This document shows positions 43,913-59,574 of a DNA stretch of 64,000 bases, piece by piece. The stretch is from Pseudoclavibacter sp. RFBB5. Its GTDB lineage: Bacteria > Actinomycetota > Actinomycetes > Actinomycetales > Microbacteriaceae. The position numbers were made by a program, and so were the translations under genes. The DNA lies in the NCBI RefSeq assembly GCF_002931555.1, contig NZ_PSTZ01000010.1:248001-312000 (forward strand), given 5' to 3'. Under the pieces are notes generated by a model. The model saw nothing but the letters and a program-made list of their open reading frames with translations, did no database searches and was not told the origin of the DNA. How positions within the stretch are numbered: the first letter of the stretch is position 1; every line of letters starts with the position of its first letter.

Positions 43913-45330
43913 CTCGCCGGCCCCGCGCCGACCGTCAGCACGAATCTGGCATAGCCGGTCAGAGCAGGAACACCGTCGTCGACAGCCTCGACGATGACGT
44001 GGATCTGCTCCCCTTGCACCGCGTCCGCCGCCACCCGCACCAGGCACTTGCCCGGCAGGACAACGATCTCGGAATCCGACCCTTGATCCTGGAAGGCCGT
44101 CACCGAGATGTCCCCGCCGTCCGGGTCGACGACCGTGAAATCCAGCTGGACACGTTCGCCTGGTCGCACAGCACGATCCAGCCCGGTCGCCGAGACGCGA
44201 GGCGCGTGATTGGCGTCCGCAGGGTCGGCGGTGACGGTCCAGCGCAGGCGAGCAGCGAAGTCCCTCTGGAATGCGCCGATCCACCGACCTGCGTCGCCGG
44301 CATCCGTGATCGGAGCCCCCGGCGTCCACGACACCGCCCCCGCGCTGTCCCATCGGTTGGGGTCATCGGCATGCGGAGTCTGCCTGCCGCCCCATCCCCC
44401 AAACGACGGATGCTCGGCATTCCGAAGTCCGTTGTCGATGTGCATCGCGAAGTTCGAGGAGTCGCCCTCCGAGATCCACGCGCCGGCATCGTGGAGCGGC
44501 GCCCAGAGCTGGTATCCACGAGCGACGAGGTCATCGGCGGAAGCACCTCGAACGCCGAAGTAGTCCTCCGGGTCGAAGCCGTCAGCCATCTGCTCGCCGT
44601 CACCCCAGACGCGGTAGGCCTTCCCGAGAGGTCCGACCGAGGACACGTGCTGGCGCATCCACTCCGCAGAGAGATACTCCGCAGCACCATCCGGCACGAC
44701 GTGCCATGCGAAATAGCCCCACGCCGTCGTCGCGACGTCCCGGAACTCGATCTCCGGCCAGACCGGCCGGATGTAGGCAGCGAAGGCGTCGTCCTGCTCT
44801 CCGAAGCTCGTGATCACCGTGCGCCCGACGACCAGAGCTCGGATCACCTCCCACTGGGAGGTGCCTCGATACTGCTCCTCGATGGACTTGAGCGCGCGGG
44901 CGATGGTGTTCATACCACCCCACGCCTGCGCGAAGATCTTGCCAGGCGCGTCACCCAGCAGCACGTCGCGGACCAGATCCGACCCGGCCGTGGGTTCCCG
45001 CATATCGCCGACCTCACCCACGTTCCCGACCGCGATCAGCGCACGGAGGCGCTCGGGGTCCGGATAGCGATCGTCGTGACGGACGAGGTTCTCGTGCACC
45101 TCCGCATACGCATCCACTGCCAGATCGATGTGCATCCGCGCACCCGGCGCTGGCCAGCGGTGAGGGGCGATACCTCGGGACTCGTCGCCCGCGTGATGGA
45201 CCTGGCTCGCCGAGTAGACCAGGGCGGCGATGTCGATCTCGTTGCTGTACAGCAGGAGTCGGAGCATCGAGTTCAGGTCGTCCAGCTCTGGATCGGTGGT
45301 GACGATGATGCGCGCTGGCGCTGTCGCCAT
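43909..45330 (-). CDS. DUF1593 (nucleoside hydrolase-like) protein
   Basis: A 473-residue protein. The N-terminal domain (about 5-310) starts IIVTTDPELDDLNSMLRLL, with an Asp cluster (13, 17, 18) like the calcium site of nucleoside hydrolases, and matches DUF1593; the C-terminal part (about 370-473) is an Ig/cadherin-like domain with VQLDFTVVDPDGGDISVTAF. Such proteins accompany plant cell-wall degradation genes and are sometimes called cellulose-binding, but the reaction is unknown. No signal peptide is seen. The start at 45330 has AGAGAGG upstream. Its stop shares the CTAG of the convergent ROK gene stop. Confidence 0.82.
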   Translation of the reverse strand: MATAPARIIVTTDPELDDLNSMLRLLLYSNEIDIAALVYSASQVHHAGDESRGIAPHRWPAPGARMHIDLAVDAYAEVHENLVRHDDRYPDPERLRALIAVGNVGEVGDMREPTAGSDLVRDVLLGDAPGKIFAQAWGGMNTIARALKSIEEQYRGTSQWEVIRALVVGRTVITSFGEQDDAFAAYIRPVWPEIEFRDVATTAWGYFAWHVVPDGAAEYLSAEWMRQHVSSVGPLGKAYRVWGDGEQMADGFDPEDYFGVRGASADDLVARGYQLWAPLHDAGAWISEGDSSNFAMHIDNGLRNAEHPSFGGWGGRQTPHADDPNRWDSAGAVSWTPGAPITDAGDAGRWIGAFQRDFAARLRWTVTADPADANHAPRVSATGLDRAVRPGERVQLDFTVVDPDGGDISVTAFQDQGSDSEIVVLPGKCLVRVAADAVQGEQIHVIVEAVDDGVPALTGYARFVLTVGAGPAS

Positions 45331-45380
45331 GGCTCGCCTCTCTGTTGCAATCGTGTTTGGGACCTGACGCGGGATCTGCG

Positions 45381-46364
45381 TCAGGTCTCGAAGGCATCCC
45401 GCCTGATGGCATCGAGGGTCTCGAACACACTGGTTGTGTCCTCGAGCGTGTGCGTGGGGTGCTCGAGGAGACCGGACATCGCAGCGTCGTTGGCCGCGCG
45501 GAGCATCGGCGTGTAGCCGTGTCCCTCGCGATCCACGGTGCAGTGACGCGCTCGTGGCCCCTCGGGGCCGTAGGAGTGGACCGTGAGGCTCGACGCGAAC
45601 CAGAAGCCTGGATCGATGTCGATCCAGCCCTGATCCCCGGAAATGGCCGCCGAAGAGCTGAGGAACTCCACCATGGAACTCGCCCCGTGCGCGAAGCGCC
45701 CGCCGTCGTACTCGAGCGTGAAGTGCTCGCTCAGGTCGTTGCTGTCCGCCCTGACCGTACCGTTGGCGTGCACGCGTTCCGGGGCGCCGAGCATCATGTG
45801 GCTCAGCGTGACGGGATAGATGCCCTGGTCGAGAAGCGCGCTGCCTCCCGGCTGCCAACGGCTTGAGCCATCCCGCGGGAAAGGCGCACCGAAGGATGCT
45901 TGCACGGCGCGGACCTGGCCGATCTCTCCTGACCTCACGATGTCGCCGACAAGCGCCATGAGCGGATTGAATTTCATCCACATGGCCTCCATGAGGAAGA
46001 GACCCTCGTCGCGGGCCAGTTCCGCGAGCTCACGAACCTCACGAGCATCGAGGCCCAGGGGCTTCTCGCACAGCACATGCTTGCCATGCAGCAACGCGCG
46101 CCTGGCCAGTTCGAAGTGCGTCACGTGAGGCGTGCAGAGGTACACGATGTCGATGTCCGACTCCAGCATCGCCGTGTAGTCGTCGAAGGGGTTCGGGATG
46201 TCGAAGTCGACCGCGAACCTCGTCGAACGCTCGATGCTTCTGGAGGCGACCGCCACGAGAGATGCGGACTCGACCAGATGAAGGTCATGCGCGATCTGCT
46301 TCGACACCGCGCCGGTGCCCGCTATGCCCCACCGGAGCGGTCGCCGCTCGTCTGCGCTATCCAT
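45381..46364 (-). CDS. Gfo/Idh/MocA-family sugar oxidoreductase
   Basis: A 327-residue protein with the Rossmann start WGIAGTGAVSKQIAHDL, the CTPHVTHFELARRALLHGKHVLCEKPLG block containing the family EKP motif, and the C-terminal alpha/beta domain starting near FGAPFP. It resembles the trans-1,2-dihydrobenzenediol/D-xylose dehydrogenase branch. It oxidises or reduces a sugar with NAD(P)H. The ATG lies within the last 8 nt of the GH35-like gene, so the two are coupled. The substrate is unknown. Confidence 0.9.
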   Translation of the reverse strand: MDSADERRPLRWGIAGTGAVSKQIAHDLHLVESASLVAVASRSIERSTRFAVDFDIPNPFDDYTAMLESDIDIVYLCTPHVTHFELARRALLHGKHVLCEKPLGLDAREVRELAELARDEGLFLMEAMWMKFNPLMALVGDIVRSGEIGQVRAVQASFGAPFPRDGSSRWQPGGSALLDQGIYPVTLSHMMLGAPERVHANGTVRADSNDLSEHFTLEYDGGRFAHGASSMVEFLSSSAAISGDQGWIDIDPGFWFASSLTVHSYGPEGPRARHCTVDREGHGYTPMLRAANDAAMSGLLEHPTHTLEDTTSVFETLDAIRRDAFET

Positions 46365-48000
46365 CAGTCGGATCCGCGAACTCCAGCAGCGTGATCCTCA
46401 CCGCTGTCACACCTGCCATGTCGAGCGTCACGAGACGCTCATCACCGTTCAGCAGACGTCCTCCAACCAACTCGCCCTCCTCCAGGCGGAGCTCCTGCAC
46501 GCTGGATATCTCGACCGTCGCCCCCTCACGCGAGAAATCGACGATCGCGCGCTGCCCGACAGCCAGGTACTCGAGCGGTCCCGTCTGCACGACGATGCCG
46601 AAGGGACGCGAGTCGGCGAAGGAGGGGGCGTGCGCGGTCGGGAGGTTCTCGTCCGGGAGCGATGGAAGTTCCGGGAGGCGAACGCCGACATCCAAGAGCA
46701 CATCGGCGAGCGTCTTCGGAGCACTCCGGACGACCACGGTGGTCGATCCGAACTGACCTGTTGCAGAGTCGACGCCCTGGTCGAGGGCGAACCCCATGAC
46801 CAGGCCGGCCCGGCGAGCATCGAGCAGTTGGGGTGCCATGCCGATGAGGTGCCGGAAGCCGGCGAACAGCTGACTCCCCGGACGGACGTCGTCGATCCCG
46901 AACGCGTGATACCCGATCGCGTCGAACGAGCCGAAGGCACGGAATGCATCGCCCGTGATGACGCGGGCCTCCGGCACGAAGAGCGGGTTGTCCTCGGAGG
47001 CGTACTCGCGCATAACGGATTCACTGTCTGGCGTGTAGATGTCCGGTGCGAGGAAGTCGAGGTGCGGTGCAGCCGCCCGCCAGACGCCACCCATCCGGGC
47101 CGTGGGGCCACCGCTCGGGTACTGACCCGGGAGGTCCTGTCCCGGCTGAGGCCCAAGCCAGGCATTGGCGTAGGCGGGCAGGCCCTTGATGGACTTGCCC
47201 CGCTTGGCGAGTTCCCCGAGGTAGCTGGCGAAGCCCCACGCCATGAACACCTCGTCGGCGACGAGATTCTCGTCGCCCCAGCGATCCTGCCAGGATGCTC
47301 CGGCCGCTCCGGGGGCTCGGAACAGCTCCACGATGTCGTCGTGGAACCCTTCGGGGTGACGTCCCACGGCTTCCAGGAGAGCCGCCGGCACCGGCGACTG
47401 CCACGCGTCCTCGGCTACCGCAGCGCGGTCGCGGCTGACGCCGAGGAGTCCGACCTCATTCTCCACCTGCATGATGATGACGGTGTGCTGCTCGTCGACG
47501 AGGGCAATGTGTCGCATGAGCGCCTCGTACGCCCTTGCATCTGCCTCCCTCAACCGAGGCGAGAAGACTGACAGCGTCGGTTTCGGCATCGAGCCGGGGT
47601 AGGTGAGCGGGGCTCTCATCGGCGAAGGCCCGCGGTCCGCACGCTCGAACCGGGAGGGGTCGCGGCGAACCCAGCTCGGCGCGTAGGTCGAGGTGGCGTT
47701 CTTGAACGCGCCGAACCAGATGAGCACAAGGCGGATGCCCGCCGCGCGCGCGCCTTCCAGGAGGGCGTCGACGACGCTGAAGTCGAAATCGCCCTCGCTC
47801 GGCTCCACCTGGTCCCAGGCGACTGGCGCGACGACCGAGTTGATCCCCGACTCTGCGAGAGCGGCCCAGACCTTCTCCATGTGGACGGGATCGGAAGCAC
47901 TGGAGTTGCGCAGCTCTCCGCCGACGCAGAGGAACGGCGCCCCGTCCACGATCAACTCTGCGTGCTTGCCTGAACGTGTGAGGTGTGGAAGCTCGAACAT
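46357..48000 (-). CDS. GH35-like beta-galactosidase (DUF5597-type)
   Basis: A 547-residue intracellular enzyme. The TIM barrel has VAPVAWDQVEPSEGDFDF, the acid/base motif QVENEVG (Glu180 and Glu182, Glu180 being the likely acid/base) and the candidate nucleophile in LFVPEARV; the C-terminal 130 residues form a beta domain. This matches GH35-like proteins with a DUF5597 C-terminus, seen in bacterial beta-galactosidase-type enzymes. AAGGAG 6 nt before the ATG supports the start. It is first of a three-gene operon with the oxidoreductase and DUF1593 protein. Confidence 0.85.
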   Translation of the reverse strand: MFELPHLTRSGKHAELIVDGAPFLCVGGELRNSSASDPVHMEKVWAALAESGINSVVAPVAWDQVEPSEGDFDFSVVDALLEGARAAGIRLVLIWFGAFKNATSTYAPSWVRRDPSRFERADRGPSPMRAPLTYPGSMPKPTLSVFSPRLREADARAYEALMRHIALVDEQHTVIIMQVENEVGLLGVSRDRAAVAEDAWQSPVPAALLEAVGRHPEGFHDDIVELFRAPGAAGASWQDRWGDENLVADEVFMAWGFASYLGELAKRGKSIKGLPAYANAWLGPQPGQDLPGQYPSGGPTARMGGVWRAAAPHLDFLAPDIYTPDSESVMREYASEDNPLFVPEARVITGDAFRAFGSFDAIGYHAFGIDDVRPGSQLFAGFRHLIGMAPQLLDARRAGLVMGFALDQGVDSATGQFGSTTVVVRSAPKTLADVLLDVGVRLPELPSLPDENLPTAHAPSFADSRPFGIVVQTGPLEYLAVGQRAIVDFSREGATVEISSVQELRLEEGELVGGRLLNGDERLVTLDMAGVTAVRITLLEFADPTDG

Positions 48001-48116
48001 GGGATCTCCTTGGGTTTTCGTGAGCGGTGCGACAGTGCACGGTGATGCGGTGGAGGGCGGAACGTGCGGACGTTCGGCGCCGATGAGTCTGCTGGTGGGG
48101 CGGTCCTGCGCGGCGG

Positions 48117-49127
48117 TTAGTCCTGTTTCGTCGAGAAGGCCGAGTCGAACGCGGCCTCCGACGGGCGGTACGTGGAGAGCTTGCGCACGAACCCCAACGC
48201 CTCAGGAGCACCCACGAGACGGTCCATGCCGGCGTCCTCCCACTCCACCGACAACGGCCCCTCGTAGCCGATCGCGTTCAGCATGCGGAAGCAGTCCTCC
48301 CACGGCACATCCCCGTGCCCGGTCGAGATGAAGTCCCAACCCCGCCTCGGGTCAGCCCAGGGCAGGTGCGACGACAGGCGCCCGTTCCGGCCATTGCTGA
48401 GGCGCTTCTTCGTGTCCTTGCAGTGCACGTGATAGATGCGGTCCTGGAAGTCCCACAAGAACCCGACCGGGTCGATGTCCTGCCACACCATGTGCGAGGG
48501 ATCCCAGTTCAACCCGAACGACTCCCGGTGCCCGATCGCCTCCAACGCGCGCTTCGTGGTCCAGTAGTCGTACGCGATCTCGGACGGGTGCACCTCGTGC
48601 GCGAACCGAACCCCGACCTCCTCGAACACGTCCAGGATCGGGTTCCACCTGTCCGCGAAGTCCTGATAGCCGGCATCCACCATCGCCTCCGTGGCGGGAG
48701 GGAACATCGCCACGTACTTCCAGATGCTCGACCCCGTGAACCCGGTGACGGTCTTCACGCCGAGCGCCGCCGCGAGACGGGCCGTGTTCTTCAGCTCCTC
48801 CGCCGCACGCTGCCGCACGCCCTCCGGGTCGCCGTCACCCCACACTCGGTCGGAGACGATGTCGCGGTGCCGCTGGTCGATCGGGTCGTCACACACCACC
48901 TGCCCCTTGAGGTGGTTCGAGATCGTCCACACCTTCAGACCATTGCGCTCGAGAATGTCGAGCTTGCCCTGGACGTACTCGGCGTCATCCCACCGCCACG
49001 GATCCAGGTGATCACCCCAGCAGGCGATCTCGAGACCGTCATACCCCCACTCCCCCGCAAGGCGCGCAACCTCCTCGAACGGCAGATCGGCCCACTGACC
49101 GGTGAACAACGTGACAGGACGAGACAT
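48117..49127 (-). CDS. sugar phosphate isomerase/epimerase-family TIM-barrel protein
   Basis: A 336-residue xylose isomerase-like TIM barrel. Likely metal ligands are in [26 protein letters not shown] and [10 protein letters not shown], giving the usual Glu/Asp/His/Glu set. Such enzymes isomerise or epimerise sugars or act on 3-keto-sugars. It is the last gene of the C-glycoside operon (after a 45-nt gap from the Gfo/Idh/MocA gene) and may process the sugar released by the deglycosidase; that role is inference. GAGGAG 4 nt before the ATG supports the start. Confidence 0.88.
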
Positions 49128-49172
49128 GCTTCTCCTCTTAGCTGGCGTTCTCGAATGCTGAAGCCGCGCTGC

Positions 49173-50327
49173 TCAGACAGCGACGGCGGACCGGGTCTCG
49201 ACCCACGCGCTCTCCGCGGCCGAGCTGCGCTCGACGGCGTCGAGCACTCGCTGCACGCTGAGCCCCTCTTCGAAGCTCGAGTGCAACGGGGTGCCGTCTG
49301 CGATGGCGGTGATGAGGTCGACAACCTGGTGCGTGAAGCCGTGCTCGTAGCCGAGCATGTGGCCGGCCGGCCACCAGGCCGAGACGTAGGGATGGACTGG
49401 CTCGGTCACGAGGATCTGCGCGAACCCCTGCGCCCGACTGTCCGCCGTGCGGTCGTAGTACTGCAGCGAGTTGAGATCCTCGAAGTTCCACGCGAGAGCG
49501 CCGAACTCGCCGGAGACCTCGATGGCGAGCGCGTTCTTGCGGCCCGTCGCGAAGCGGCTCGCGTCGAACGAGGCGAGCGCCCCGCCCGAGAGCCGCCCGG
49601 TGAAGATCGCGATGTCGTCGACCGTCACGGACCCAGTGCCCGAGCCGTCGGCGAGCGGCCGCTCAGTGATGATCGTGTCGATCGTGCCGGAGACCCGCTC
49701 GATGTTCTGGCCTGTGACGAACTGCGTGAGATCGATGGCGTGCGCCCCGATGTCGCCGAGCGCACCCGAACCCGCGAACTCCTTCTGCAGGCGCCACGAG
49801 AGCGCCGCATCCGGGTCGACGAGCCAGTCCTGCTGGTACGAGGCACGCACCCGGTGGATGCGGCCGATCCTGCCCTCGGCGATCAGGTCGCGCAGCAGGG
49901 TCACGGCTGGCACGCGACGGTAGGTGAACCCGACCATCGACTTCACGCCGTGCTCTGCCGCGCGAGCGGCCGCATCCGCCATCGACTCGCCCTCTGCGAC
50001 CGTGTTGGAGAGCGGCTTCTCGACGATGACGTGCTTGCCCGCCTCGAGCGCCGCGATGGCGATCTGTGCGTGCGAGTCACCTGGCGTGACGATGTCGACG
50101 ATGTCGATGTCGTCTCGCCCGATGACCTCACGCCAGTCGGTGGCCGACTCCTGCCAGCCCCACTGCCTCGCGGCCTCCGCGACGGCCTCACCGTTGCGCC
50201 CGACCACAACCGCCATCTCGACCTCGGCTGGCAGGCCGAAGACGCGAGGCGCCTGCCGCCAGCCGACCGAGTGAGCGGCTCCCATGAAGCCGTAGCCGAT
50301 CATGGCGACTCGAAGGGGCTTGGTCAT
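49173..50327 (-). CDS. Gfo/Idh/MocA-family oxidoreductase
   Basis: A 384-residue protein. N-terminal Rossmann VAMIGYGFMGAAHSVGWRQ, the IVDIVTPGDSHAQIAIAALEAGKHVIVEKPL block (EKP motif), and the C-terminal fold with GDIGAHAIDLTQFV. It oxidises or reduces a sugar or a keto-sugar. I choose the ATG at 50327, where the conserved MTKPLRVAMIG begins; a start at 50363 adds 12 residues. It lies 69 nt downstream of the deglycosidase alpha gene and probably acts on the 3-keto-sugar product. Known C-glycoside clusters in related actinobacteria often carry such a gene, as I recall. Confidence 0.9.
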   Translation of the reverse strand: MTKPLRVAMIGYGFMGAAHSVGWRQAPRVFGLPAEVEMAVVVGRNGEAVAEAARQWGWQESATDWREVIGRDDIDIVDIVTPGDSHAQIAIAALEAGKHVIVEKPLSNTVAEGESMADAAARAAEHGVKSMVGFTYRRVPAVTLLRDLIAEGRIGRIHRVRASYQQDWLVDPDAALSWRLQKEFAGSGALGDIGAHAIDLTQFVTGQNIERVSGTIDTIITERPLADGSGTGSVTVDDIAIFTGRLSGGALASFDASRFATGRKNALAIEVSGEFGALAWNFEDLNSLQYYDRTADSRAQGFAQILVTEPVHPYVSAWWPAGHMLGYEHGFTHQVVDLITAIADGTPLHSSFEEGLSVQRVLDAVERSSAAESAWVETRSAVAV

Positions 50328-50396
50328 AGGAGCTTCGCTTCTCTCTGCGGGATGGTCGATCATGGTCGGTCTTCTTGCGGTGCGGACGCGTGCAGG

Positions 50397-51500
50397 TCAG
50401 CGGCGAACCGGCAACGCGTGGTGCGCTGCGAGCACTCGCCGCGCTTCAGCTGGGTCGGTGATCATCCGCGATCCCGCATCAGCAGCGGCGGAGCGCTGAA
50501 CGGCCTGCTCGTCGCGCACGATGTCGAACGCGCTCTGCCAGTGGTTCCAGTGCCATCCCTCGTATTCGCTCGAGACGGCGCCCGAGTAGCCCTGCTCGAC
50601 AAGCAGTGCGATGAGCTCGCGCACGGGAACCGAGGGTTCCTCGCCGTGCTCGTCGATGCCGAAGAACTTGCCGTGCACGTGCTTGACCCACGGCATGATC
50701 TCGAGCCAGTCCTCGACGCGGGCCGGACCGAAGAGACCGGTGCCGTTGATGGCGAAGTCGATGCCGAAGTCGGGGCGGCCGTGCTTGGCGGCGAGGCCGA
50801 TGAACGAGCCGAAGCGCTTGCCGTGCACGCCCTGGTCGGCCGGCGGGCCTTCCGCGTAGTAGCCGTCCCACAGCTCGACGAGCTCGGCGAGCAGCTCTTC
50901 AGAGGCACCGCGGCGGCGGTAGGCCTCGACGGCGGATGGGGCGAACGCCTTGGTGGTGGCGCCCCAGTCGGCGGTGAAGCCGAGGAACGGGGAGCCGACC
51001 TGCTCGAAGCGGTCGCGCAGCGCGAGGATGCGCGGGTGCGACGCGTACTGGTCAGCATGGACCTCGAGCGCGAGGGTCACGCCGTGCTTCTCGGCGATCG
51101 GCGCGAGCTGCTCCATCGAGTCCGGCGTGATCGAGATCTGCACGCGGGCGACGGGGAAGCCGAGCTTGGCAGCAGCCTCGATCTGCCGCGTCATGTACTC
51201 GACGAGCTCGTCCTGCGACAGCAGGCGGTCGCGGTGGATGCCGATGTCGGCGTTGACCGCGAGCGAGGTGCGCACGAGGTCGAGCTCCTCGACGAGGTCC
51301 GAGAACTGACCGGCGAACTCATCCGTCACGTGCGGGAAGCCGCGAACGCTCGAGAACCCGATCATCTCGATTCCCGGCCCGAAACCGTCAGCCGCTACCT
51401 TGCGGATGAGCCCCTCGAGGTCGTACTCGCGTCCGTGGAACGCGCGGGTGAAGCTGTAGAGGGTGACCCCCTGGATGGGGGTGCCGAGCTCGCCGGTCAT
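50397..51500 (-). CDS. C-glycoside deglycosidase alpha subunit-like TIM-barrel protein
   Basis: A 367-residue xylose isomerase-like TIM barrel. Candidate metal ligands are Glu146 (ALEVHAD), Asp178 (FTADWG), His276 (HVHGKFF) and Glu312 (SSEYEG). The next gene upstream encodes a beta-subunit-like protein and overlaps this start as ATGA, which is the arrangement of the two-subunit C-glycoside deglycosidases described in Microbacterium, Arthrobacter and gut Eubacterium. These cleave the carbon-carbon bond of a 3-keto-C-glycoside, giving the aglycone and an unsaturated keto-sugar. The assignment rests on the partner gene and the 3-oxidase gene as much as on the sequence. Confidence 0.8.
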   Translation of the reverse strand: MTGELGTPIQGVTLYSFTRAFHGREYDLEGLIRKVAADGFGPGIEMIGFSSVRGFPHVTDEFAGQFSDLVEELDLVRTSLAVNADIGIHRDRLLSQDELVEYMTRQIEAAAKLGFPVARVQISITPDSMEQLAPIAEKHGVTLALEVHADQYASHPRILALRDRFEQVGSPFLGFTADWGATTKAFAPSAVEAYRRRGASEELLAELVELWDGYYAEGPPADQGVHGKRFGSFIGLAAKHGRPDFGIDFAINGTGLFGPARVEDWLEIMPWVKHVHGKFFGIDEHGEEPSVPVRELIALLVEQGYSGAVSSEYEGWHWNHWQSAFDIVRDEQAVQRSAAADAGSRMITDPAEARRVLAAHHALPVRR

Positions 51501-51892
51501 GCGGAAACCGCCTTCATCGTCTTGGAGCTGTGTTCTTCGATGCGGAGCACCCCGTGGTCAGACACGATGTACGGGATGTACAGGCTCAGGTCGACGTCGA
51601 CGGTGTGCTCTTCATCGCCGGCGGTGATCGGGATGTCACCTTCGACGACAACCGAGTCGGTCGGGAACCACCATTCGCTGCTGTCGCCAGCGAGTTCGTC
51701 GGGCGCATACGTCTTCCCGTTCATGGTCCAGCGCAGCGACTCCAGCGAGGCGGCAACGCCGTCGACGGACAGGCCGAACTCGGAGATGCAGGATGCGGGA
51801 AGCGCGCGGTACCAGGGCAGACGCACCTCGACAGAGGTGCGTGCCCCGTTCGTCTTGAGTGTGTCTCGTTCAATCATCCGATCAGGAATCAT
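51497..51892 (-). CDS. C-glycoside deglycosidase beta subunit-like protein (DUF6379)
   Basis: A 131-residue all-beta protein (many alternating hydrophobic strands: TSVEVRLPWYRALP, VSVDGVAASLESLRW-like segments, HTVDVDLSLYIPYI). Size, strand pattern and the motif LPWYRALPASCISEF match the small beta subunit of C-glycoside deglycosidases, which caps the alpha-subunit barrel and completes the active site. GGAGG 5 nt before the ATG gives a strong start. Its stop overlaps the alpha start. It follows the 3-oxidase gene after 30 nt. On its own such a small protein would be called hypothetical; the neighbourhood makes the call firm. Confidence 0.8.
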   Translation of the reverse strand: MIPDRMIERDTLKTNGARTSVEVRLPWYRALPASCISEFGLSVDGVAASLESLRWTMNGKTYAPDELAGDSSEWWFPTDSVVVEGDIPITAGDEEHTVDVDLSLYIPYIVSDHGVLRIEEHSSKTMKAVSA

Positions 51893-51922
51893 GGTGGCCT
51901 CCTAGCCAGTTGTCAGTCATGG

Positions 51923-53509
51923 TCAGTTCTGTGTCGCCTGAGCGACGACGGCTGGTGCCGTGGTGAGCTTCGCCGCGACGTCGCGGGCACCCTTCACCGC
52001 GAGCGCGACGCCCGTGAGCGTCGGGTTACAGGCCGTCGAGGTAGGGATGACGCCGTTGCCGGCGACATAGAGCCCCGGCACGCCCCACACCTCGCTCGTC
52101 GGCGAGCAGACGCTCTCGCCATCGTCCGTCTCGCCCATGCGAGTCGTGCCCTGGTAGTGCAGGGACGCCCCGAACGGCAGGCGCATGACCCGCTCGTCGA
52201 GGGGTTCGCCGACAGCCGCGCCGAGCCTGCGCAGCTCGGTCTCGGCCGCATCCATCACCGCCCGGTCCTTGTCGGTGGCGGTGTAGTGGATGCGCACGGC
52301 GGGCATCCCGTAGCTGTCGAGGTGCCCCTCTGTGAAGAGCACGCGGTCGTCGCGCTGCAGCTCCTTCGCGCAGAACATGCCGAGCCCCACGATGGAGCCG
52401 GGGATGACCGCGTCGTCGACCGCGACGGGCACGGGGGACGCGTCGAGCTGCATGATCTGCCCGTGGAACGGCTTCGCGTCGGTGTACGGCACCCAGCTGA
52501 CGCCGCTCGTCTCGCTGATCGCGCCAGCAGCCTTGTCGGTTGCCGCTGCCGCCGAGCTTTCCGGCGCCTCGATGCCGGTGATGCGGGCGGCGAAGACAAC
52601 CTGCGACTGGTCGTTGAGGTAGCGGCCGAGCGCGTCAGGGCGGACGCCCGAGGCCCACAGCACCTGCGGGGTGCGGAGGGCATCGGCGGCCACGACGACC
52701 ACTCGGGCCGCGACCACGCTGAGCTGCTCGGCACCGGTCTCGCTGAGGTCGCGCACCTCCACGCCCGCGGCCGCTCCGTCGTCGCCGATGACAGTCCGGG
52801 TGACGAGGGACTCGTCGAAGAGCTCGAAGTTGGGGTTCTCGCGAGTCACGTCACCGAGAACGACGTCCGAGCCGGACCAGACGAGCCGTCCGTCGTCGCG
52901 GTGACGCACGGCGAGCGGCATGCGCTGCACGCGGGCGACAGGCTCGCGACCCTCGTCGACAACCGGTGAGAGCCGATCACGGATGAGCTGGCTGAACGGC
53001 GCACCCTCGAACGCGTCGGTGGTCACCCCGAGCAGGCGCTCGGCCTCGCCGAGGAGCTCATCGAGCTCACCCGTCGAGTCGAGGAAAGCAACGCGCTCGC
53101 TCTCCCCCGGACGGGGGCAGGCACCAGTCCAGTGCGCCGACATGCCGCCGACGTTGCTCGACATGGCCGCGACAGGCAGCCCCTCGCCGCCGCCGACGGA
53201 GAAATCGCCGTCGGGAAGGAGGTACGTGCCCGGGCGTGACTGACGCTTCCCCTGCGCGAGGGCGACGGGACTGTTGAGCTTGGAGGCAGCCTCCCCTGGC
53301 CCCTCGGAGCGCCGTTGGGCAGTGGCGCGTGCCTCGAGGTCCTCGATGTTCTTGACGTGCGCGCCGGGCGGGTTCGACACGGTCGGCCCGACCTCGAACA
53401 TCGCGATGCGCAGCTCGGGTGCTGTCTCGCTCAGGATGCGTGCGTACGTTGCGCCGGCCGGTCCGCTGCCGACGATGGCGACGTCAACACGTTCGGGGTA
53501 GCGGGTCAT
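51923..53509 (-). CDS. pyranose-oxidase-like C-glycoside 3-oxidase (GMC family)
   Basis: A 528-residue FAD enzyme with N-terminal GSGPAG (14-19), the segment VGGMSAHWT (His126), which corresponds to the flavin-linking STHWT of pyranose 2-oxidase, and the C-terminal catalytic pair His451 (LHYQGTTRMG) and Asn495 (TACNPTLTG). This is the CarA/pyranose oxidase branch, which oxidises the C3 hydroxyl of the sugar in C- or O-glycosides. Oxidation at C3 is needed before the deglycosidase can cut. The ATG overlaps the stop of the upstream isomerase gene (ATGA). Whether FAD is covalently bound cannot be told from sequence. Confidence 0.85.
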   Translation of the reverse strand: MTRYPERVDVAIVGSGPAGATYARILSETAPELRIAMFEVGPTVSNPPGAHVKNIEDLEARATAQRRSEGPGEAASKLNSPVALAQGKRQSRPGTYLLPDGDFSVGGGEGLPVAAMSSNVGGMSAHWTGACPRPGESERVAFLDSTGELDELLGEAERLLGVTTDAFEGAPFSQLIRDRLSPVVDEGREPVARVQRMPLAVRHRDDGRLVWSGSDVVLGDVTRENPNFELFDESLVTRTVIGDDGAAAGVEVRDLSETGAEQLSVVAARVVVVAADALRTPQVLWASGVRPDALGRYLNDQSQVVFAARITGIEAPESSAAAATDKAAGAISETSGVSWVPYTDAKPFHGQIMQLDASPVPVAVDDAVIPGSIVGLGMFCAKELQRDDRVLFTEGHLDSYGMPAVRIHYTATDKDRAVMDAAETELRRLGAAVGEPLDERVMRLPFGASLHYQGTTRMGETDDGESVCSPTSEVWGVPGLYVAGNGVIPTSTACNPTLTGVALAVKGARDVAAKLTTAPAVVAQATQN

Positions 53510-54300
53510 GCGGCCACCCCGACTTCCCGCACGAAGGCGACCGAAGCCGCGGACTCCGTGGTCGGGGAGTACTCGAGCCCGACGGGCCCGTCATAGCCGG
53601 ACGCGCGCAGCACGGAGAACTTCTCCGCCCAATCGAGCGCACCGCTGCCGGGCTCGCCACGGCCGGGCGCATCCGCCAACTGCACGTACTTGACGATGGC
53701 GCCGGCGTTCGCGAGTTCGGTGGCCATGTCCTCGCCCTCGACGGCCGAGTGGTAGATGTCGTAGAGCACGCCGAAGTTCGGAGAATCGACGCCGCGCGCA
53801 ACGTAGACGGCGTCAGAGGTGCGGTCGATGAGCGCACCCGGGTGGTCGACGCGGATGTTGACGGGCTCGAGCACGAGCGTGATGCCGGAACCCTCGATCT
53901 GCGCGATGGCCTTCTCGTAGATGGCGATCAGTTCGTCGAGCTGCGTCTGACGCTTCGAGCCGCCGAAACCGGTACCGCTGCCGACGACGAGTCGCGGGCA
54001 ACCGAGCTCCTGGGCGATGGCGACCCCCTCGTCGAGGCACTGGTAGAAGAAGGAATGGTCTTTCGGCGGCAGCATGAACTGCGTTCGCGGCTCGGCGAGC
54101 TGGGCCGTGAGCTGCGTGCCGGTCTCCTGCAGTGCCGCCTTGAGAGCGGGGATGTCCTTGGGCTTGGCGGGCGCGTCGCGCCCGGTCGGTCCCCACATCT
54201 CGACGGCATCGAAGCCCGCCGCAGCGGCGGCGCGGACGCGGTCCTGGTAATCGCCTGCCTCGGTGAAGAGGAGCTCGATGTTCGGAGCGAGCTGGTACAT
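53506..54300 (-). CDS. hydroxypyruvate isomerase-family TIM-barrel protein
   Basis: A 264-residue xylose isomerase-like barrel with LVLEPVNIRVDHPG, LYDIYHSAVEGED, VQLADAPGRGEPGSG and GLEYSP, the pattern of the hydroxypyruvate isomerase (Hyi/OtnI) group. It interconverts small aldose/ketose or keto acids; here it may handle the released sugar. AAGGAAAG before the ATG at 54300 fixes the start; the frame is open to 54336. It is the first gene of the C-glycoside operon and faces the LysR regulator. Confidence 0.85.
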   Translation of the reverse strand: MYQLAPNIELLFTEAGDYQDRVRAAAAAGFDAVEMWGPTGRDAPAKPKDIPALKAALQETGTQLTAQLAEPRTQFMLPPKDHSFFYQCLDEGVAIAQELGCPRLVVGSGTGFGGSKRQTQLDELIAIYEKAIAQIEGSGITLVLEPVNIRVDHPGALIDRTSDAVYVARGVDSPNFGVLYDIYHSAVEGEDMATELANAGAIVKYVQLADAPGRGEPGSGALDWAEKFSVLRASGYDGPVGLEYSPTTESAASVAFVREVGVAA

Positions 54301-54759
54301 GGTCTTTCCTTCTACGAGGTGAGGAGGTGGCGTCACTCGACACAGCCGAGAGGCAACAGGAATCGAAACAGGCGGCTCCAGTACGCGTCGAGCACAACGT
54401 CACCTTCGGGGGAACGTCGCACATTGAGCGGCATACGGAGAGCGATGTCATGATTCGAGGCAGAGTTCGCAGGTGAGAGATCCGGCCGGATTGGGTTCCC
54501 CACGACAAGCTTCTTTGCTCGTTTTTCTATTGCCCTCTCAGAGTACGCACTTATGCTCGTTTCGTGCATAAACATCCCTGATGCACCTCTTCGCCGCCAC
54601 GGATGCGTGGCGACGAGTCCTCGGCGCACCCGGGGAGGCGTCCTTCCCGGACCGCGCCGACCGCAACCGAGCGAAGCCCCCGCGAGCAAATCGATGCTCC
54701 TGCTCCGCAGACCGAGAAGGCTAAGCTGGCAGCACACCACGACCCGGAAGCACAACGAA
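54301..54759. promoter_or_regulatory. divergent promoter region of the C-glycoside operon and LysR gene
   Basis: The 459-bp gap includes the inverted repeat TTATGC-N9-GCATAA (54551-54571), which fits the T-N11-A box of LysR-type regulators and lies about 250 bp before the operon and 190 bp before the regulator. An AT-rich stretch (TTTTTCTATTGCCC, about 54521) lies near it. I see no gene in the gap; open frames here have non-coding composition. Confidence 0.6.
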
Positions 54760-55698
54760 GTGACCTCAGAAACTCCGCTCTCCAGGCTCGACCTGAACTT
54801 GCTCGTCTCCCTCGATGCACTGCTCACCGAGCGCAGCGTGACCCGAGCGGCAGAGCGCCTGCACCTCAGCCAGCCGGCGCTCAGCGCATCCCTCGGCAGG
54901 CTGCGCACACACTTCGACGACAAGATCCTCGCGCGCACGGGGAACACCTACGAGCTCACGCCCCTCGCCGTCCGCCTCAGCGAGCTGACCGCCACCGCCC
55001 TCGACTCCGCCAGGCGCGTGTTCGACAGCCAGGCCGAATGGAACCCGACCCAGTCCACGCGCGAGTTCACGGTGCTCGGATCCGACTACGGCTTCGCGAC
55101 GATCGGTGTCGCCGTCTCCAAGCTCGCCGCCCAGGCCGCACCCGGCGTCCGCTTCCGGTTCCGAATGCACAATCCCAGCATCGTCGAGGACGCGATCGCG
55201 CAGCTCCGTTCGGTCGACGCCATGATGATCCCCCACGGCTTCCTCAGCGAACTCCCCTTCAACGATCTCTTCACCGACGAGTGGCGCATCATCTGCTCCC
55301 ACAACAATCCGCACGTCGGCGAGCACCTCACGATGGAGAACATCGCCGAGCTGCCGTGGGTGTTCAACTACCTGTCGCGTTCGGCGTTCACCTCGGCCAG
55401 CCGCCAGATCCGCGAACTCGGAATCGAGCCGATCGTCGCCGCCGTCGTCGAAGGCTTCCACGTGCTCCCCCACTTCGTCGAGGGCACGAACCGGCTCGCG
55501 CTCATGCAGAAGCGGCTCACCGACATTCTCATCCCGAACGATGAGTTCCGGGTACTGGAACCCCCCTTCGACGCAACCCCCATCTCGGCGGCCCTCTGGT
55601 GGCATCCCACGCACAGCAGTGACCCCGAGCACGCGTGGATGCGCCGCCTCTTCGCGCAAGCCGGCGCCGAGATGCAGGCGGAGGCCGGCTCGGCGTAA
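54760..55698 (+). CDS. LysR-family transcriptional regulator (NodD-like group)
   Basis: A 312-residue protein. The N-terminal winged HTH (about 5-65) reads LDLNLLVSLDALLTERSVTR with LHLSQPALSASLGRLR; the C-terminal substrate-binding domain follows (about 95-305). The beginning of the DNA-binding part resembles NodD and related flavonoid or aromatic-responsive regulators. I start at the GTG at 54760 (GGAAG 9 nt upstream); an open frame reaches back to 54553. Divergent from the C-glycoside operon and next to a LysR-type box, it is its likely activator, with the glycoside or aglycone as likely inducer (inference). Confidence 0.88.
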   Translation: MTSETPLSRLDLNLLVSLDALLTERSVTRAAERLHLSQPALSASLGRLRTHFDDKILARTGNTYELTPLAVRLSELTATALDSARRVFDSQAEWNPTQSTREFTVLGSDYGFATIGVAVSKLAAQAAPGVRFRFRMHNPSIVEDAIAQLRSVDAMMIPHGFLSELPFNDLFTDEWRIICSHNNPHVGEHLTMENIAELPWVFNYLSRSAFTSASRQIRELGIEPIVAAVVEGFHVLPHFVEGTNRLALMQKRLTDILIPNDEFRVLEPPFDATPISAALWWHPTHSSDPEHAWMRRLFAQAGAEMQAEAGSA

Positions 55699-55752
55699 GT
55701 CGGTTGCGCCGCGCGTCCGGCATGCGGAGGCTGCAGTTGCGGCTACGGCTAC

Positions 55753-55820
55753 TTCGGGATGGGTTTCTCACTTCGTTGCGGAAAGTTCGCCAGCACGAAG
55801 CGAGGTTTCCACCCCGAGAC
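55753..55820. repeat. palindromic repeat, family B copy 2 (core type II)
   Basis: Outer arms TCGGGATGGGTT (from 55754) and the degraded TTTCCACCCCGA (to 55818); inside, CTCACTTCGT pairs with ACGAAGCGAG around GCGGAAAGTTCGCC. The 569-bp gap 55699-56267 holds three family B copies and one tandem array but no gene. Confidence 0.8.
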
Positions 55821-55867
55821 TGTCGCGCAGCGCCACCGGCCCACCCCGCCGCACCCCATCCCACCGC

Positions 55868-55937
55868 CTCGGGATGGGTTCCGCGCACGCAGATGGGTTG
55901 CAAGCCCCCCCGAAGCGCCAAAGCCATCCCGAAACTC
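55868..55937. repeat. palindromic repeat, family B copy 3 (core type I)
   Basis: Outer arms CTCGGGATGGGTT (from 55868) and AAGCCATCCCGA (55921-55932). The core AGATGGGTTGCA is shared with copy 1 at 21748, 34 kb away. Confidence 0.82.
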
Positions 55938-55978
55938 GCTCGGCGGCGACGCCACCCGGCGCACTCACCCGCCCCAAC

Positions 55979-56047
55979 CTCGGGATGGGTTCCTCACCTC
56001 GTTGCGGAAAGTTCGCCAGCACGAAGCGAGAAAGCCATCCCGAGACG
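55979..56047. repeat. palindromic repeat, family B copy 4 (core type II)
   Basis: Outer arms CTCGGGATGGGTT (from 55980) and AAGCCATCCCGAG (56032-56044). The core GTTGCGGAAAGTTCGCCAGC is identical to that of copy 2 over about 30 nt. Confidence 0.85.
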
Positions 56048-56129
56048 GAAGAAGTGGGGGTCGGGTCAAGGGCAACCGGTGGGGTCAACCGTCATCCAAG
56101 CAACCGTCATCGAGGCAGCAACGCAGCGG

Positions 56130-56280
56130 TCAGCGACTCAGCGGTCAGCGGGTCAGCGGGTCAGCGGTCAGCGGGTCAGCGGGTCAGCGGTCAGCGGGTC
56201 AGCGGGTCAGCGGTCAGCGGGTCAGCGGTCAGCGGGTCAGCGGGTCAGCGGTCAGCGGGTCAGCAACTCAGCGGGTCAGG
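56130..56280. repeat. tandem array of TCAGCGG/TCAGCGGG units, 7-8-8 pattern
   Basis: Nineteen TCAGC cores separated mostly by GG or GGG, so 7-bp and 8-bp units alternate, largely as 7-8-8 (a 23-bp higher unit). Two units have variant linkers (GAC, AAC). The array covers the stop codon and the last codons of the thiolase gene; on that strand every unit carries TGA, so stops occur in all frames. Confidence 0.95.
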
Positions 56281-57485
56281 ATGAGGGCGTCGCCCTGGCC
56301 GCCTCCGCCGCAGAGGGCGACCGCGGCCGTTCCGCCGCCTCGGCGGTTGAGTTCGTGCACGGCGTGGACGACGACGCGAGCTCCGGATGCGCCGATCGGG
56401 TGGCCGAGGGCGATCGCGCCGCCGTGCGGATTCACGACCTCGTCGGGGACGCCGAGCTCGGTCTGCGACTGCACGACGACGGCCGCGAAGGCCTCGTTGA
56501 TCTCGACATGGTCAAGCGAGGAGACTTCGATGCCCTGCTTCTCGCAGGCCCGCGCGATAGCGCGGGACGGCTGCGACTGCAGCGATGCGTCTGGTCCGGC
56601 GACCTGGCCAGCTGCGCCGACGACCGCGAGCACGTCGTAGCCGTGCGCGTCGGCGAACGCGCGAGTCGTGAGGACAACCGCGGACGCACCGTCGGAGATG
56701 GGCGAGGCGTTGCCTGCCGTGATCGTCCCGTCCGCGGTGAAGGCGGCGCGCAACCCGGCAAGCGATTCGGCGGTCGTGGAGGGGCGGATGCCCTCGTCGC
56801 GGGTCACCCGAACCGGGTCGCCCCGACGGGCGGGCACGTCGATGGCCACGATCTCGGCGTCGAACAGCCCAGCCTCCACGGCCGCGGCGGCGCGCTGGTG
56901 GGAGCGCGCGGCGACCGCGTCCTGCGCCTCGCGCGTGATGCCGAGGCTCGTGTTGTGCTGCTCGGTGAGGAGGCCCATGCTCTGCCCGGATGCCGCATCC
57001 GTCAGCCCGTCGTGCGCCATATGATCGAGCGCCTCGACCGAGCCGTACGCCCAGCCCTTGCGTGAACCGGTGAGCAGGTGCGGCGCCTGGCTCATCGACT
57101 CCATGCCGGCCGCGACGACGAGCTGCGCGTCGCCGGTCTTCAGCAGGCGGGCAGCGTCGATGACAGCGGTGAGCCCCGAGAGGCAGACTTTGTTGATGGA
57201 GGCGACGTGCGCGGACGCCGGGATGCCCGCGGCGAGCGCCGCCTGGCGTCCGGCGTTCTGCCCGACCCCGGCGGAGAGCACGTGCCCGACCAGGACGGCG
57301 TCGACCAGCGACGCGTCGATGCTGCCCTGTGCGAGCGCGCCGCTGATCGCGGCGGCGCCGAGCTGCGGGGCGGTCAGCGTCGAGAGCTGCCCGTTGAGCT
57401 TGCCCTGCGGGGTCCGGGCGGCGGCGACGATGACGACGTCGTTCGCGGCCGGAGCTGGGCTCGCGCCGAAGTCTGTGCCGCTCAT
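56268..57485 (-). CDS. acetyl-CoA C-acyltransferase (thiolase)
   Basis: A 405-residue thiolase. The nucleophile is Cys101 in INKVCLSGLTAV; HVEINEAFAAV, the NPHGGAIALGHPIGASGAR block and the C-terminal CGGGGQGDA (second catalytic Cys) are intact. It cleaves or forms a beta-ketoacyl-CoA with CoA. It is the last of six coupled genes of a ring- or acid-degradation operon, so a thiolytic final step to acetyl-CoA fits. The ATG overlaps the upstream FAH-family stop (ATGA). The final codons, Leu-Thr-Arg-stop, already belong to the tandem array. Confidence 0.93.
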   Translation of the reverse strand: MSGTDFGASPAPAANDVVIVAAARTPQGKLNGQLSTLTAPQLGAAAISGALAQGSIDASLVDAVLVGHVLSAGVGQNAGRQAALAAGIPASAHVASINKVCLSGLTAVIDAARLLKTGDAQLVVAAGMESMSQAPHLLTGSRKGWAYGSVEALDHMAHDGLTDAASGQSMGLLTEQHNTSLGITREAQDAVAARSHQRAAAAVEAGLFDAEIVAIDVPARRGDPVRVTRDEGIRPSTTAESLAGLRAAFTADGTITAGNASPISDGASAVVLTTRAFADAHGYDVLAVVGAAGQVAGPDASLQSQPSRAIARACEKQGIEVSSLDHVEINEAFAAVVVQSQTELGVPDEVVNPHGGAIALGHPIGASGARVVVHAVHELNRRGGGTAAVALCGGGGQGDALILTR

Positions 57486-58504
57486 GCGCTCACGCGTCCT
57501 CTCGTTCGTGCCCGCGACGCCGCTCGGGCACGCGGGACCGGCACGGCGTCGACGGCCGCACCGATGACGTTGCTGATGTCGCCGATGCGTTCGACACGCA
57601 GCTCGACGACGTCGCCCTCCGCGAGCGGTGGCGGCGTGAGCGAGCCCGCGCGGCCCCACAGCTCGGCGAGGCATCCGCCGTTGCCAGCGGTGCCGGAGCC
57701 GAGCACGTCACCCGGCACGACCCGCGAGTTCCGGGACGCGTAGACCAGGAGCTGCGGGAACGACCAGCCCATGTTCGAGAGCAGGTCGCTGCCGATGAGC
57801 TCGCCGTTGACGAGCGCCTGCAGCTCGAGCTCGAGGAAGCCGTCGGCGTCGTGCGCGTCGGCGAGCTCGTCGGCCGTGACGATCCACGGCCCGAGCGTCG
57901 CGGCAAAGTCCTTGCCCTTGCAGGGTCCGAGGCGCACCTTCATCTCGCGCGACTGGATGTCACGCGCCGACCAGTCGTTGAAGACGCTGTAGCCGAAGAT
58001 GTGGTCGGCCGCGGCCGCCTCGTCGAGGTTCGACCCCTCGCTGCCGTCCACCGCGCCGACGATCACGGCGACCTCGAGCTCGAAGTCGAGCCGCTCGGTC
58101 ACGGGCGGGCGGATGCTCGCCCCGCTGCCCACAAGCGAGTGCGGGTTGGTGAAGTAGAAGGTGGGCGCGTCGTACCACTCGGCGACGACCCCCGAGTCGC
58201 CGTCGATCGACTTCACGACGCCCTCGACGTGCTCCTCGAACGCGACGAAGTCGCGCACGCTCGGCGCCTCGATGGGGGCGAGCAGCTCGACGTCGGCGAG
58301 CGACGGGGCGAGACCGAGGGAACCGTCCGCCCAGGCGCCCTCGATGAGCGAGGCCGCGATCGCGTTGGCGCGGTCGAGGCCGAGCCTCGTCGCGCCGAGC
58401 ACGGTCAACCCGTCGGCGAACGCGAGCAACCGGTCGCCGCCCTCGTGCGCGACGACGACCCCGTCGTGCGTTCGGCCGTCGTGCATCCACCTGGCGTATC
58501 TCAC
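57482..58504 (-). CDS. fumarylacetoacetate hydrolase-family protein (first in sequence order)
   Basis: A 340-residue protein with an N-terminal ARWMHDG-type domain and the FAH catalytic domain (about 85-310): FVAFEEHVEG, DFELEVAVIVG (metal-binding Glu residues), GYSVFNDWSARDIQ, GKDFAATLGPWIV and GSGTAGNGGCLAELWG. Members hydrolyse or decarboxylate beta-diketo acids such as fumarylacetoacetate or 2-oxo-hept-3-ene-dioate. The start is a GTG that overlaps the upstream stop (GTGA). A second FAH gene lies in the same operon (61806-62801). Confidence 0.9.
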   Translation of the reverse strand: MRYARWMHDGRTHDGVVVAHEGGDRLLAFADGLTVLGATRLGLDRANAIAASLIEGAWADGSLGLAPSLADVELLAPIEAPSVRDFVAFEEHVEGVVKSIDGDSGVVAEWYDAPTFYFTNPHSLVGSGASIRPPVTERLDFELEVAVIVGAVDGSEGSNLDEAAAADHIFGYSVFNDWSARDIQSREMKVRLGPCKGKDFAATLGPWIVTADELADAHDADGFLELELQALVNGELIGSDLLSNMGWSFPQLLVYASRNSRVVPGDVLGSGTAGNGGCLAELWGRAGSLTPPPLAEGDVVELRVERIGDISNVIGAAVDAVPVPRARAASRARTRGRVSA

Positions 58505-59574
58505 CGTGCCGCCTCCACGGTGTTCCAGACGCGGGGTAGCCGCGCGGCGTTGCCGAACAGGATCTGCGCCTCGTCCTCGGCGCCGAGTTCCGCGTCGTGG
58601 ACACGCTCGACGGGGTTCTCGACGCCCATGTCGAAGGGGTAGTCGGAGCCGAGGAGCACCCGGTCGGCGCCGACGGCGGCGACGAGGTTCCGCAGCGCGT
58701 CGGGCGTGTGCACGAGCGAGTCGAAGCTCAGCTGCCGCAGGTACGTGGACGGCGCGCGCAGGCAGGTGCGCGCCTCGGGCCGCACCTCCCAGGCGTGGTC
58801 GGAGCGGCCGATGAACGTCGGCAGGTAGCCGCCGCCGTGCGCCGCGATGAGCACGAGGTTCGGGAAGCGGTCGAGCACGCCACCGAAGATGAGGTGGGAG
58901 ATCGCGGCCGCGTTCTCGGCGGGCTGGCCGACCGTGTTGGAGAGGTAGAAGCGGTCGAGGCGCTCGTCGAGGCTGCAGCCGAACGGGTGCAGGAACACGA
59001 TCGCCTCGAGCTCCTCGGCACGGCGCCAGAAGTCGTCGAGGCGCTCGTCGCTGAGCTCCACGTCACCCGCGAACGACGACAGCTCGACCCCGGCGAGCCC
59101 GTTGGTCAGCACGGCGTCGTCGAGCAGCTCGACGAGACGGTGCGGATGCTGCAACGGCACGAGCCCGAGCCCGCGCAGCCGTTCGGGCGCACCGGCTACG
59201 TGCTCGGCGATGGCCGCGTTGGCCTCCTTCGCCGCCCAGACGGCGAGCTCCTCGCCCGCCCACGGGTAGTAGTGGCTGGGCGAGGGCGAGACGAGCTGCA
59301 CATCCACGCCCTGCGCATCCATCACCGCGAGGCGCTCTTCGAGGGAGATGAGCTTCGGGAAGCGCGACTTGATCATGGCACCGGATGCGGCGAGGCTCGC
59401 CGGCCCGTTGCGCTTGGCCTCGAGCTCGCCGGCGGCGGCGAAGCCCTCGGGGTCGCGGCCCTGCACGGCGCCCTGGAGGGCGGGGAGGAGGAGGTGCGCG
59501 TGGACGTCGACGACCTGGCCTGAAGCGCTGGAAGCGTCGGTCGCGTTCACGGCTGCGTCGCTCCCGCCGCTCAT
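58501..59574 (-). CDS. ACMSD-like amidohydrolase-family protein
   Basis: A 357-residue TIM-barrel metalloenzyme with DVHAHLLLP (His25, His27), FLHPFGC, AAHGGGYLP and GSDYPFD, the ligand set of the 2-amino-3-carboxymuconate-semialdehyde decarboxylase group. Members decarboxylate or hydrate ring-derived or aromatic acids (for example gamma-resorcylate or 2-hydroxy-muconate derivatives). The ATG overlaps the upstream stop (ATGA). The substrate is unknown. Confidence 0.88.
   Translation of the reverse strand: MSGGSDAAVNATDASSASGQVVDVHAHLLLPALQGAVQGRDPEGFAAAGELEAKRNGPASLAASGAMIKSRFPKLISLEERLAVMDAQGVDVQLVSPSPSHYYPWAGEELAVWAAKEANAAIAEHVAGAPERLRGLGLVPLQHPHRLVELLDDAVLTNGLAGVELSSFAGDVELSDERLDDFWRRAEELEAIVFLHPFGCSLDERLDRFYLSNTVGQPAENAAAISHLIFGGVLDRFPNLVLIAAHGGGYLPTFIGRSDHAWEVRPEARTCLRAPSTYLRQLSFDSLVHTPDALRNLVAAVGADRVLLGSDYPFDMGVENPVERVHDAELGAEDEAQILFGNAARLPRVWNTVEAAR

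Follow-up and report, generated by a model that had tools for sequence, protein, structure and literature searches.

The 64-kb window analyzed here, that is, the whole stretch of 64,000 nucleotides taken from contig C9 of the 3.77-Mb genome of Pseudoclavibacter sp. RFBB5, very probably carries an inducible operon for the catabolism of C-glycosides, compounds that withstand ordinary glycosidases. The operon is of the actinobacterial CarABC/PsG3Ox kind, and we regard the locus as a well supported member of this known catabolic type whose predicted route is nearly complete. Its nearest named relatives were found in Pseudoclavibacter strains. This reading draws on homology, conserved residues, two predicted protein folds, gene order and linkage. 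The core genes belong to a known kind of locus; in the literature consulted, for which the cited papers were available in part, two components had no assigned role, namely the first gene of the operon (HYI) and a linked ring-catabolism operon. All genes named by the original prediction (an oxidase, a small beta protein, TIM barrels, a Gfo/Idh dehydrogenase and a facing LysR gene) were present at this place and are supported by Pfam, NCBIfam and PDB matches. They are listed below, the operon in its 5' to 3' order:

53506 to 54300, minus strand: HYI, Hyi-like TIM barrel, first gene of the operon (Pfam AP_endonuc_2)
51923 to 53509, minus strand: G3OX, predicted FAD-dependent C-glycoside/glycoside 3-oxidase (phmmer against PDB 7qf8 and 7dve)
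51497 to 51892, minus strand: C-glycoside deglycosidase (CGD) beta subunit, 131 aa (PF19906, CGDB; Foldseek)
50397 to 51500, minus strand: CGD alpha subunit, TIM barrel (7dnm_A; seven AgCGD2 residues)
49173 to 50327, minus strand: GFO, Gfo/Idh/MocA oxidoreductase, predicted 3-keto-sugar reductase (Pfam; longest frame from 50363)
48117 to 49127, minus strand: HYD, TIM barrel, predicted 2-hydroxy-3-keto-glucal hydratase (8ro4, 2zds)
54760 to 55698, plus strand: divergent LysR-type regulator, 312 aa (PF00126, PF03466; start placed by homology)

The reactions, substrates and regulation that we infer are as follows. The oxidase would oxidize C3 of the C-linked hexose using O2, and a metal-assisted beta-elimination by the alpha/beta CGD would then cleave the C-C bond, releasing the aglycone and 2-hydroxy-3-keto-glucal. 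HYD is predicted to add water to this glucal to form 3-keto-glucose, which GFO would reduce to glucose. HYI probably acts on an intermediate as an isomerase or epimerase, shifting or inverting a position adjacent to its keto group. The divergent LysR protein may switch the operon on at a T-N11-A box, and the neighboring ring operon probably consumes the aglycone.

The oxidase and the deglycosidase pair carry this reading. The oxidase was closest to PsG3Ox (7qf8), which it matched at E 9.9e-228 across residues 3-518 with a gap-free insertion-1 region, and it matched 7dve at E 2.1e-214; we take 7dve to be MtCarA, although the molecule name in the PDB table differs. The catalytic pair of PsG3Ox, H440/N484, is present as H451/N495. 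An HMM check had been proposed for the 131-residue protein, and it scored 50.6 bits against PF19906 (CGDB; cut-off 27.6). Its fold had been singled out beforehand as one of the points on which the reading should stand or fall: searching the AlphaFold model (pLDDT 89.7) with Foldseek, all 17 matches at E <= 0.001 were CGD beta subunits or fused CGDs. Y28 of this subunit is invariant in 16 sequences and may correspond to Tyr39 of PuCGE, judging by the coordinate offset of the 7bvr_B phmmer match. The alpha subunit matched that of AgCGD2 (7dnm_A) at E 1.2e-51. The metal and catalytic residues of AgCGD2 given in the available text of PMC8563793 (E147, H149, D179, H269, K271, E305 and E307) correspond to E146, H148, D178, H276, K278, E312 and E314 in the window, and all seven are present in 17/17 aligned sequences. 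With these seven residues, the His/Asn pair of the oxidase and the family match of the beta subunit all retained, the proposed assignment to C-glycoside deglycosidases is supported. The claim that such enzymes need exactly an oxidase plus alpha and beta subunits is too narrow, since gut systems use a Gfo/Idh enzyme, DgpA (PMC8563793, in the portion available).

The arrangement is also conserved. We searched the HYI alignment alone against species genomes and examined 79 named loci (the best of 106 relatives) with 10-kb flanks, some of them clipped by contig ends. The oxidase, CGD beta and CGD alpha were each found in 77 of these loci, GFO in 71, HYD in 66 and LysR in 60; matches above 50% identity to beta, alpha and oxidase each occurred in 76/79. 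The exact order HYI-oxidase-beta-alpha-alpha2-beta2-GFO-HYD was observed in 62/79 loci. Because this order is kept across genera, the arrangement is more than chance. The second CGD pair (alpha2-beta2) is missing from both AY1F1 (L121) and the window, and one locus (L170) has HYI and LysR with neither oxidase nor CGD in view. The locus of Arthrobacter globiformis NBRC 12137 (L199) has the conserved order, and its second pair is AgCGD2 itself (100% over the fragments used), adjoining orthologs of the window's pair. L199 also has the LysR gene, whereas a look at its 10-kb flanks found no ring-catabolism genes. The window alpha and beta subunits are 75% and 59% identical to these orthologs and 33% and 39% identical to AgCGD2.

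Multiple CGD copies were frequent among the relatives: three to six CGD beta matches per genome are common (L039, L041 and many named loci), and one genome (G366) has 11, some of which are perhaps one stretch counted twice at contig ends. These copies suggest an expansion for different aglycones. A prediction of C6- versus C8-glycoside preference from the aglycone-pocket residues of AgCGD2 was dropped, as the Asn248/Met249 loop aligns ambiguously and no position could be assigned to the beta-loop insertion.

Two junctions in the operon are coupled by ATGA overlaps, HYI to the oxidase (53506-53509) and CGD beta to alpha (51497-51500); the overlap originally proposed for the oxidase and beta genes was not observed, as these lie 30 bp apart. 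The remaining gaps in the co-directional run are at most 116 bp. HYI most likely starts at the ATG at 54300, where homology begins, giving 264 aa, and GFO most likely at the ATG at 50327, as in L039 and L041; for LysR, homology points to the GTG at 54760 as the putative start.

The extra genes had been proposed to process the released sugar, which is supported for HYD, a hydratase homolog, and plausible for GFO; HYI resembles neither lyase nor hydratase. HYD matched two PDB entries, 8ro4 (2-hydroxy-3-keto-glucal hydratase) at E 2.4e-37 and 2zds, whose title is Putative DNA-binding protein, at E 1.6e-164; we take 8RO4 to be AtHYD. The conserved operon offers a candidate function for structure 2ZDS. 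E178-x-H180, D209, K237 and E295-x-E297 of HYD are present in 19/19 aligned sequences, and these ExH, D, K and ExE positions resemble those of the CGD alpha subunit. GFO scored 333.8 bits against levoglucosan dehydrogenase NF052479, below the cut-off of 650. The route for the keto-sugar was originally described as a poorly described step, which does not hold: oxidation, elimination, hydration and reduction are the published steps of the levoglucosan pathway (PMC7676230), and the same four-step chemistry is described for the Agrobacterium and PUE operons (PMC10628242), as far as the available parts of these papers go.

The best reading of GFO and HYD is a general module for hydration and reduction that was taken into a C-glycoside operon. 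The two genes were adjacent in 11 of the 12 fetched HYD loci outside CGD clusters, and the genome itself has a second GFO-HYD pair, located on contig C7 with an ABC importer and a ROK gene as neighbors. We also looked for levoglucosan dehydrogenase in 297 genomes of the order; six were above the cut-off, and in two of the corresponding 20-kb stretches, both actinobacterial, an HYD homolog (69-71% identity) lies beside a Gfo/Idh gene, with the dehydrogenase itself a few kb away. The two copies of HYD in the genome (window 48117-49127; L103:9849-10859, contig C7) share 95.8% of their DNA and differ at two residues, and the window copy is less similar to its AY1F1 ortholog (93.1%) than to its own paralog. 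The GFO proteins beside the two copies are 59% identical. Since the HYD copies are near-identical while the flanking GFO genes have diverged, the comparison suggests a gene conversion confined to HYD in this genome.

Several observations weigh against the overall reading. The window alpha/beta pair lacks a close relative in the PDB set, and the AgCGD2-type second pair of most relatives is missing from the window. GFO and HYI both score below the cut-offs curated for the named enzymes to which they are similar. At position 235, HYD has His in 13/19 aligned sequences and Asp in 6/19. A close HYD was not found in four of the six 20-kb levoglucosan loci, which gave weak matches or none. In a survey of 398 family genomes, 26 of which have PF19906, HYD (E <= 1e-40) was present in 259, including all 26 with PF19906 and also 233 of the 372 without, so its presence is not specific to CGD.

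It is also conceivable that O-glycosides or free sugars are the main substrates of the operon, with C-glycosides incidental to a pyranose-oxidase-like enzyme and broad lyases. In the available texts, PurA oxidizes daidzin, genistin and apigetrin, from which the sugar is then lost spontaneously (PMC12724307), and PuCGE also eliminates 3-keto O-glucosides (PMC10628242); GH35, GH106 and GH43 genes lie nearby. However, the beta subunit is retained alongside alpha, and a lone alpha is inactive on a 3-keto-C-glycoside and has low activity on an O-glycoside (PMC13273386, in part). We consider an operon mainly for O-glycosides or free sugars improbable and retain the assignment to C-glycoside catabolism.

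HYI is a candidate keto-glycoside isomerase or epimerase. It scored 157.9 bits against hydroxypyruvate isomerase TIGR03234 (cut-off 353.45) and 116.5 bits against 2-oxo-tetronate isomerase NF043033 (cut-off 325), and thus belongs to neither family as curated. Residues E145, D181, Q207 and E243 are present in 21/21 and 32/32 aligned sequences and align with those of 3ngf. The model (pLDDT 85.3) has 1k77 and 3ngf as its best fold matches, followed by 3-epimerases and YcjR at similar TM-scores. In the family survey, HYI (E <= 1e-40) occurred in 30 of the 398 genomes, namely in 24 of the 26 with PF19906 and in 6 of the 372 without (Fisher p = 9e-31, a value that ignores shared ancestry). Two genomes with no PF19906 match (G155 and G249; loci L113 and L114) have HYI homologs (47-48%) approximately 6.5 kb from a G3OX homolog (43%). 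The link between HYI and the oxidase may be older than that between HYI and CGD.

Our tentative proposal, which we hold at clearly less than even probability, is that HYI is a keto-glycoside isomerase returning 2-keto-C-glycosides to the cleavable 3-keto form. According to the available texts, 3-keto-C-glycosides isomerize spontaneously to 2-keto forms, quantitatively or rapidly in the cases shown, and PuCGE does not cleave the 2-keto product of nothofagin (PMC13273386). With this drift, the oxidase-plus-lyase route would leak into a dead end unless an isomerase kept the two forms in exchange; that HYI closes the leak is our own suggestion. A soil-bacterium extract that turns both 3-keto-puerarin and its isomer into daidzein (PMC12724307, in part) fits this proposal without proving it. 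Within the open literature, searched by titles and abstract openings and with subscription papers mostly outside its scope, no paper assigning an HYI-type gene was found.

Alternatively, HYI might be a keto-glycoside epimerase (a YcjR-like 4-epimerase, or a 2-epimerase) that admits non-gluco C-glycosides, which is possible but doubtful. Its model is about equally close to YcjR 6wn6 (a 3-keto-D-glucoside 4-epimerase, TM 0.77), D-tagatose 3-epimerases and Hyi proteins, and the invariant E-D-Q-E residues are compatible with such an activity; on the other hand, hydroxypyruvate and 2-oxo-tetronate isomerases are its closest curated families by sequence, and in the fold alignment it is 22% identical to YcjR. 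The substrates of these same isomerases are small free keto acids, which would favor an isomerase working after cleavage on the released 3-keto-glucose or glucal. We regard this as unlikely, as HYI is tightly tied to the oxidase and CGD genes rather than to HYD and GFO, which occur without HYI in most genomes. A second beta-eliminase for O-glycosides (LgdB1- or AtOGE-like) would share the TIM fold family and a similar size with HYI (LgdB1, 30 kDa; PMC7676230, in part), yet it is very unlikely, since HYI has neither the ExH nor the HxK residues of CGD alpha, has approximately 24% identity to the barrels adjacent to levoglucosan dehydrogenase that match over most of its length, and has no eliminase title among the 50 PDB fold matches shown. 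This low identity also led us to reject HYI as an LgdB1 ortholog.

The isomerase proposal has a practical consequence: if HYI restores the 3-keto form, enzymatic C-deglycosylation should give higher yields with HYI added.

The 459-bp gap between LysR and the operon contains two overlapping dyads:

54564 to 54586, unstranded: perfect T-N11-A dyad, GTGCAT-N11-ATGCAC, in the LysR/operon gap
54551 to 54571, unstranded: overlapping dyad TTATGC-N9-GCATAA, candidate operator, found once in the window

The T-N11-A box had been part of the original prediction. The bare pattern is uninformative, with 1929 matches in the window; what stands is the perfect dyad with 6-bp arms around it, of which the 64-kb window has six, corresponding to a chance of about 4% per 459-bp stretch. 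We examined 61 upstream regions of orthologous LysR genes (approximately 300 bp each); the named loci are related to one another, so the test is not fully clean. In 35/61 there was a T-N11-A dyad with five or more of the six arm pairs (background 0.30 per 300 bp), and in 5/61 a perfect one (background 0.029). TTATGC-N9-GCATAA was picked post hoc from a poor footprint alignment of the LysR/HYI gaps. It has six strand matches (three palindromic sites) in the 1.6 Mb of the 79 loci, two of the three sites being inside LysR/HYI gaps (L121 and L160), and its strict form occurs in just 2/61 LysR upstream regions. Promoter and terminator scans yielded no more than shuffled sequence, and an Rfam search of 43000-57000 found zero families at the gathering threshold.

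Other features of the locus lie on both sides of the operon:

56268 to 62843, minus strand: ring-catabolism operon (thiolase, FAH hydrolase, amidohydrolase, FAD monooxygenase, PF04199 cyclase, FAH hydrolase)
46357 to 48000, minus strand: GH35-family/DUF5597 glycoside hydrolase (NF051902, 486 bits, just below the cut-off of 500)
45381 to 46364, minus strand: GFO2, second Gfo/Idh oxidoreductase (Pfam)
43909 to 45396, minus strand: Sde182 nucleoside-hydrolase-like protein, start not fixed (PF07632, 212 bits)
36894 to 42171, minus strand: SBP_bac_5-type ABC importer, candidate uptake system
33626 to 37072: GH106 rhamnosidase, downstream
31202 to 32719: GH43, downstream

The ring operon probably consumes the aglycone. 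Among the 398 family genomes, 34 have its cyclase (E <= 1e-100). The gene is present in 24 of the 26 genomes that carry PF19906, against 10 of the 372 that do not (Fisher p = 2e-28, again with shared ancestry ignored), and it lies within 18 kb of a CGD beta gene in 22 of these 24, the exceptions being G045 (other contig) and G150 (784 kb). We fetched 20 cyclase loci, 16 with PF19906 and four without. Cyclase, monooxygenase and FAH were in order in 20/20, and all five genes (FAH, cyclase, monooxygenase, amidohydrolase and FAH) were present in 9/20. Three of the four loci without PF19906 have a nearby LysR gene 47-64% identical to that of the window. A natural reading of these gene neighborhoods is that one LysR regulator may be shared by sugar removal and ring breakdown. 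If HYI is an isomerase and the ring operon takes the aglycone, the locus would represent a complete program, controlled by a single LysR regulator, for the sugar and the aglycone of a C-glycoside alike. A comparison of the ring genes with a flavonoid fde operon drew on the available fde/ifc passages (PMC11303751 and PMC11069340); Pfam named no extradiol dioxygenase among the seven proteins of 56268-63439, so we did not adopt this identity and claim no substrate for the ring genes. A literature search for the ring-operon link returned papers on these oxidases and CGDs, none with the word fumarylacetoacetate. It should be noted that a tandem array (56124-56279; unit of about 23 bp, CAGCGGGTCAGCGGGTCAGCGGT; 6.8 copies) lies between the LysR gene and the ring operon and overlaps the final bases of the thiolase frame.

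Downstream, the co-directional run extends past 48117 through the GH35/DUF5597 gene and GFO2 to the Sde182-like gene (43909-45396), the last of the run. In G054 and G178, homologs of GH35 and GFO2 are neighbors of CGD and oxidase genes, and the CGD loci of these two genomes also have homologs of the SBP_bac_5-type importer. In 22 of the 79 named loci, GH106 or GH43 homologs (>45% identity) occur within 10 kb, a count that has no background control. Importer genes of another type are present near HYI in the three relatives inspected (L123, L175 and L199). The GH35/DUF5597 protein is likely a trimming enzyme of the same locus, and the downstream hydrolases and importer together may have a trimming-and-uptake role. 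Near window position 1400 there is a weak G3OX-like match (29% identity, 60 bits).

Compared with known systems, the window is closest in kind to CarABC of Microbacterium sp. 5-2b, PurABC of Paenarthrobacter No. 37 and the PsG3Ox cluster, which share with it an FAD oxidase near CGD alpha/beta genes, the conserved residues and an origin in soil actinobacteria (PMC8563793, PMC10646112 and PMC12724307, each in part). It differs in having one CGD pair, of a subfamily lacking a close PDB member, and its 131-aa beta subunit is smaller than CarC (19.6 kDa, PMC8563793). In the available texts on these oxidase-type soil actinobacteria, the assigned steps end at aglycone release and HYD, GFO and HYI are not assigned; the main text of PMC10807413, also on these oxidases, mentions no gene cluster, operon, isomerase, LysR or hydratase. 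For every sugar step beyond that point, the conserved operon supplies a candidate enzyme. HYI shares its fold and E-D-Q-E residues with hydroxypyruvate and 2-oxo-tetronate isomerases, but falls below both cut-offs and is tied to C-glycoside genes. The Agrobacterium AtOGE/AtHYD operon (PMC10628242, in part) has an eliminase, AtOGE, that works on O-glucosides, and the window HYD is homologous to 8RO4. Finally, the LgdA-LgdB1-LgdB2-LgdC pathway (PMC7676230) and its LgdB3 variant (PMC10066097), as described in the available parts of these papers, share with the window the sequence of oxidation, elimination, hydration and reduction by Gfo/Idh proteins and TIM barrels; in the window, the FAD oxidase and the alpha/beta CGD would stand in for LgdA and LgdB1.

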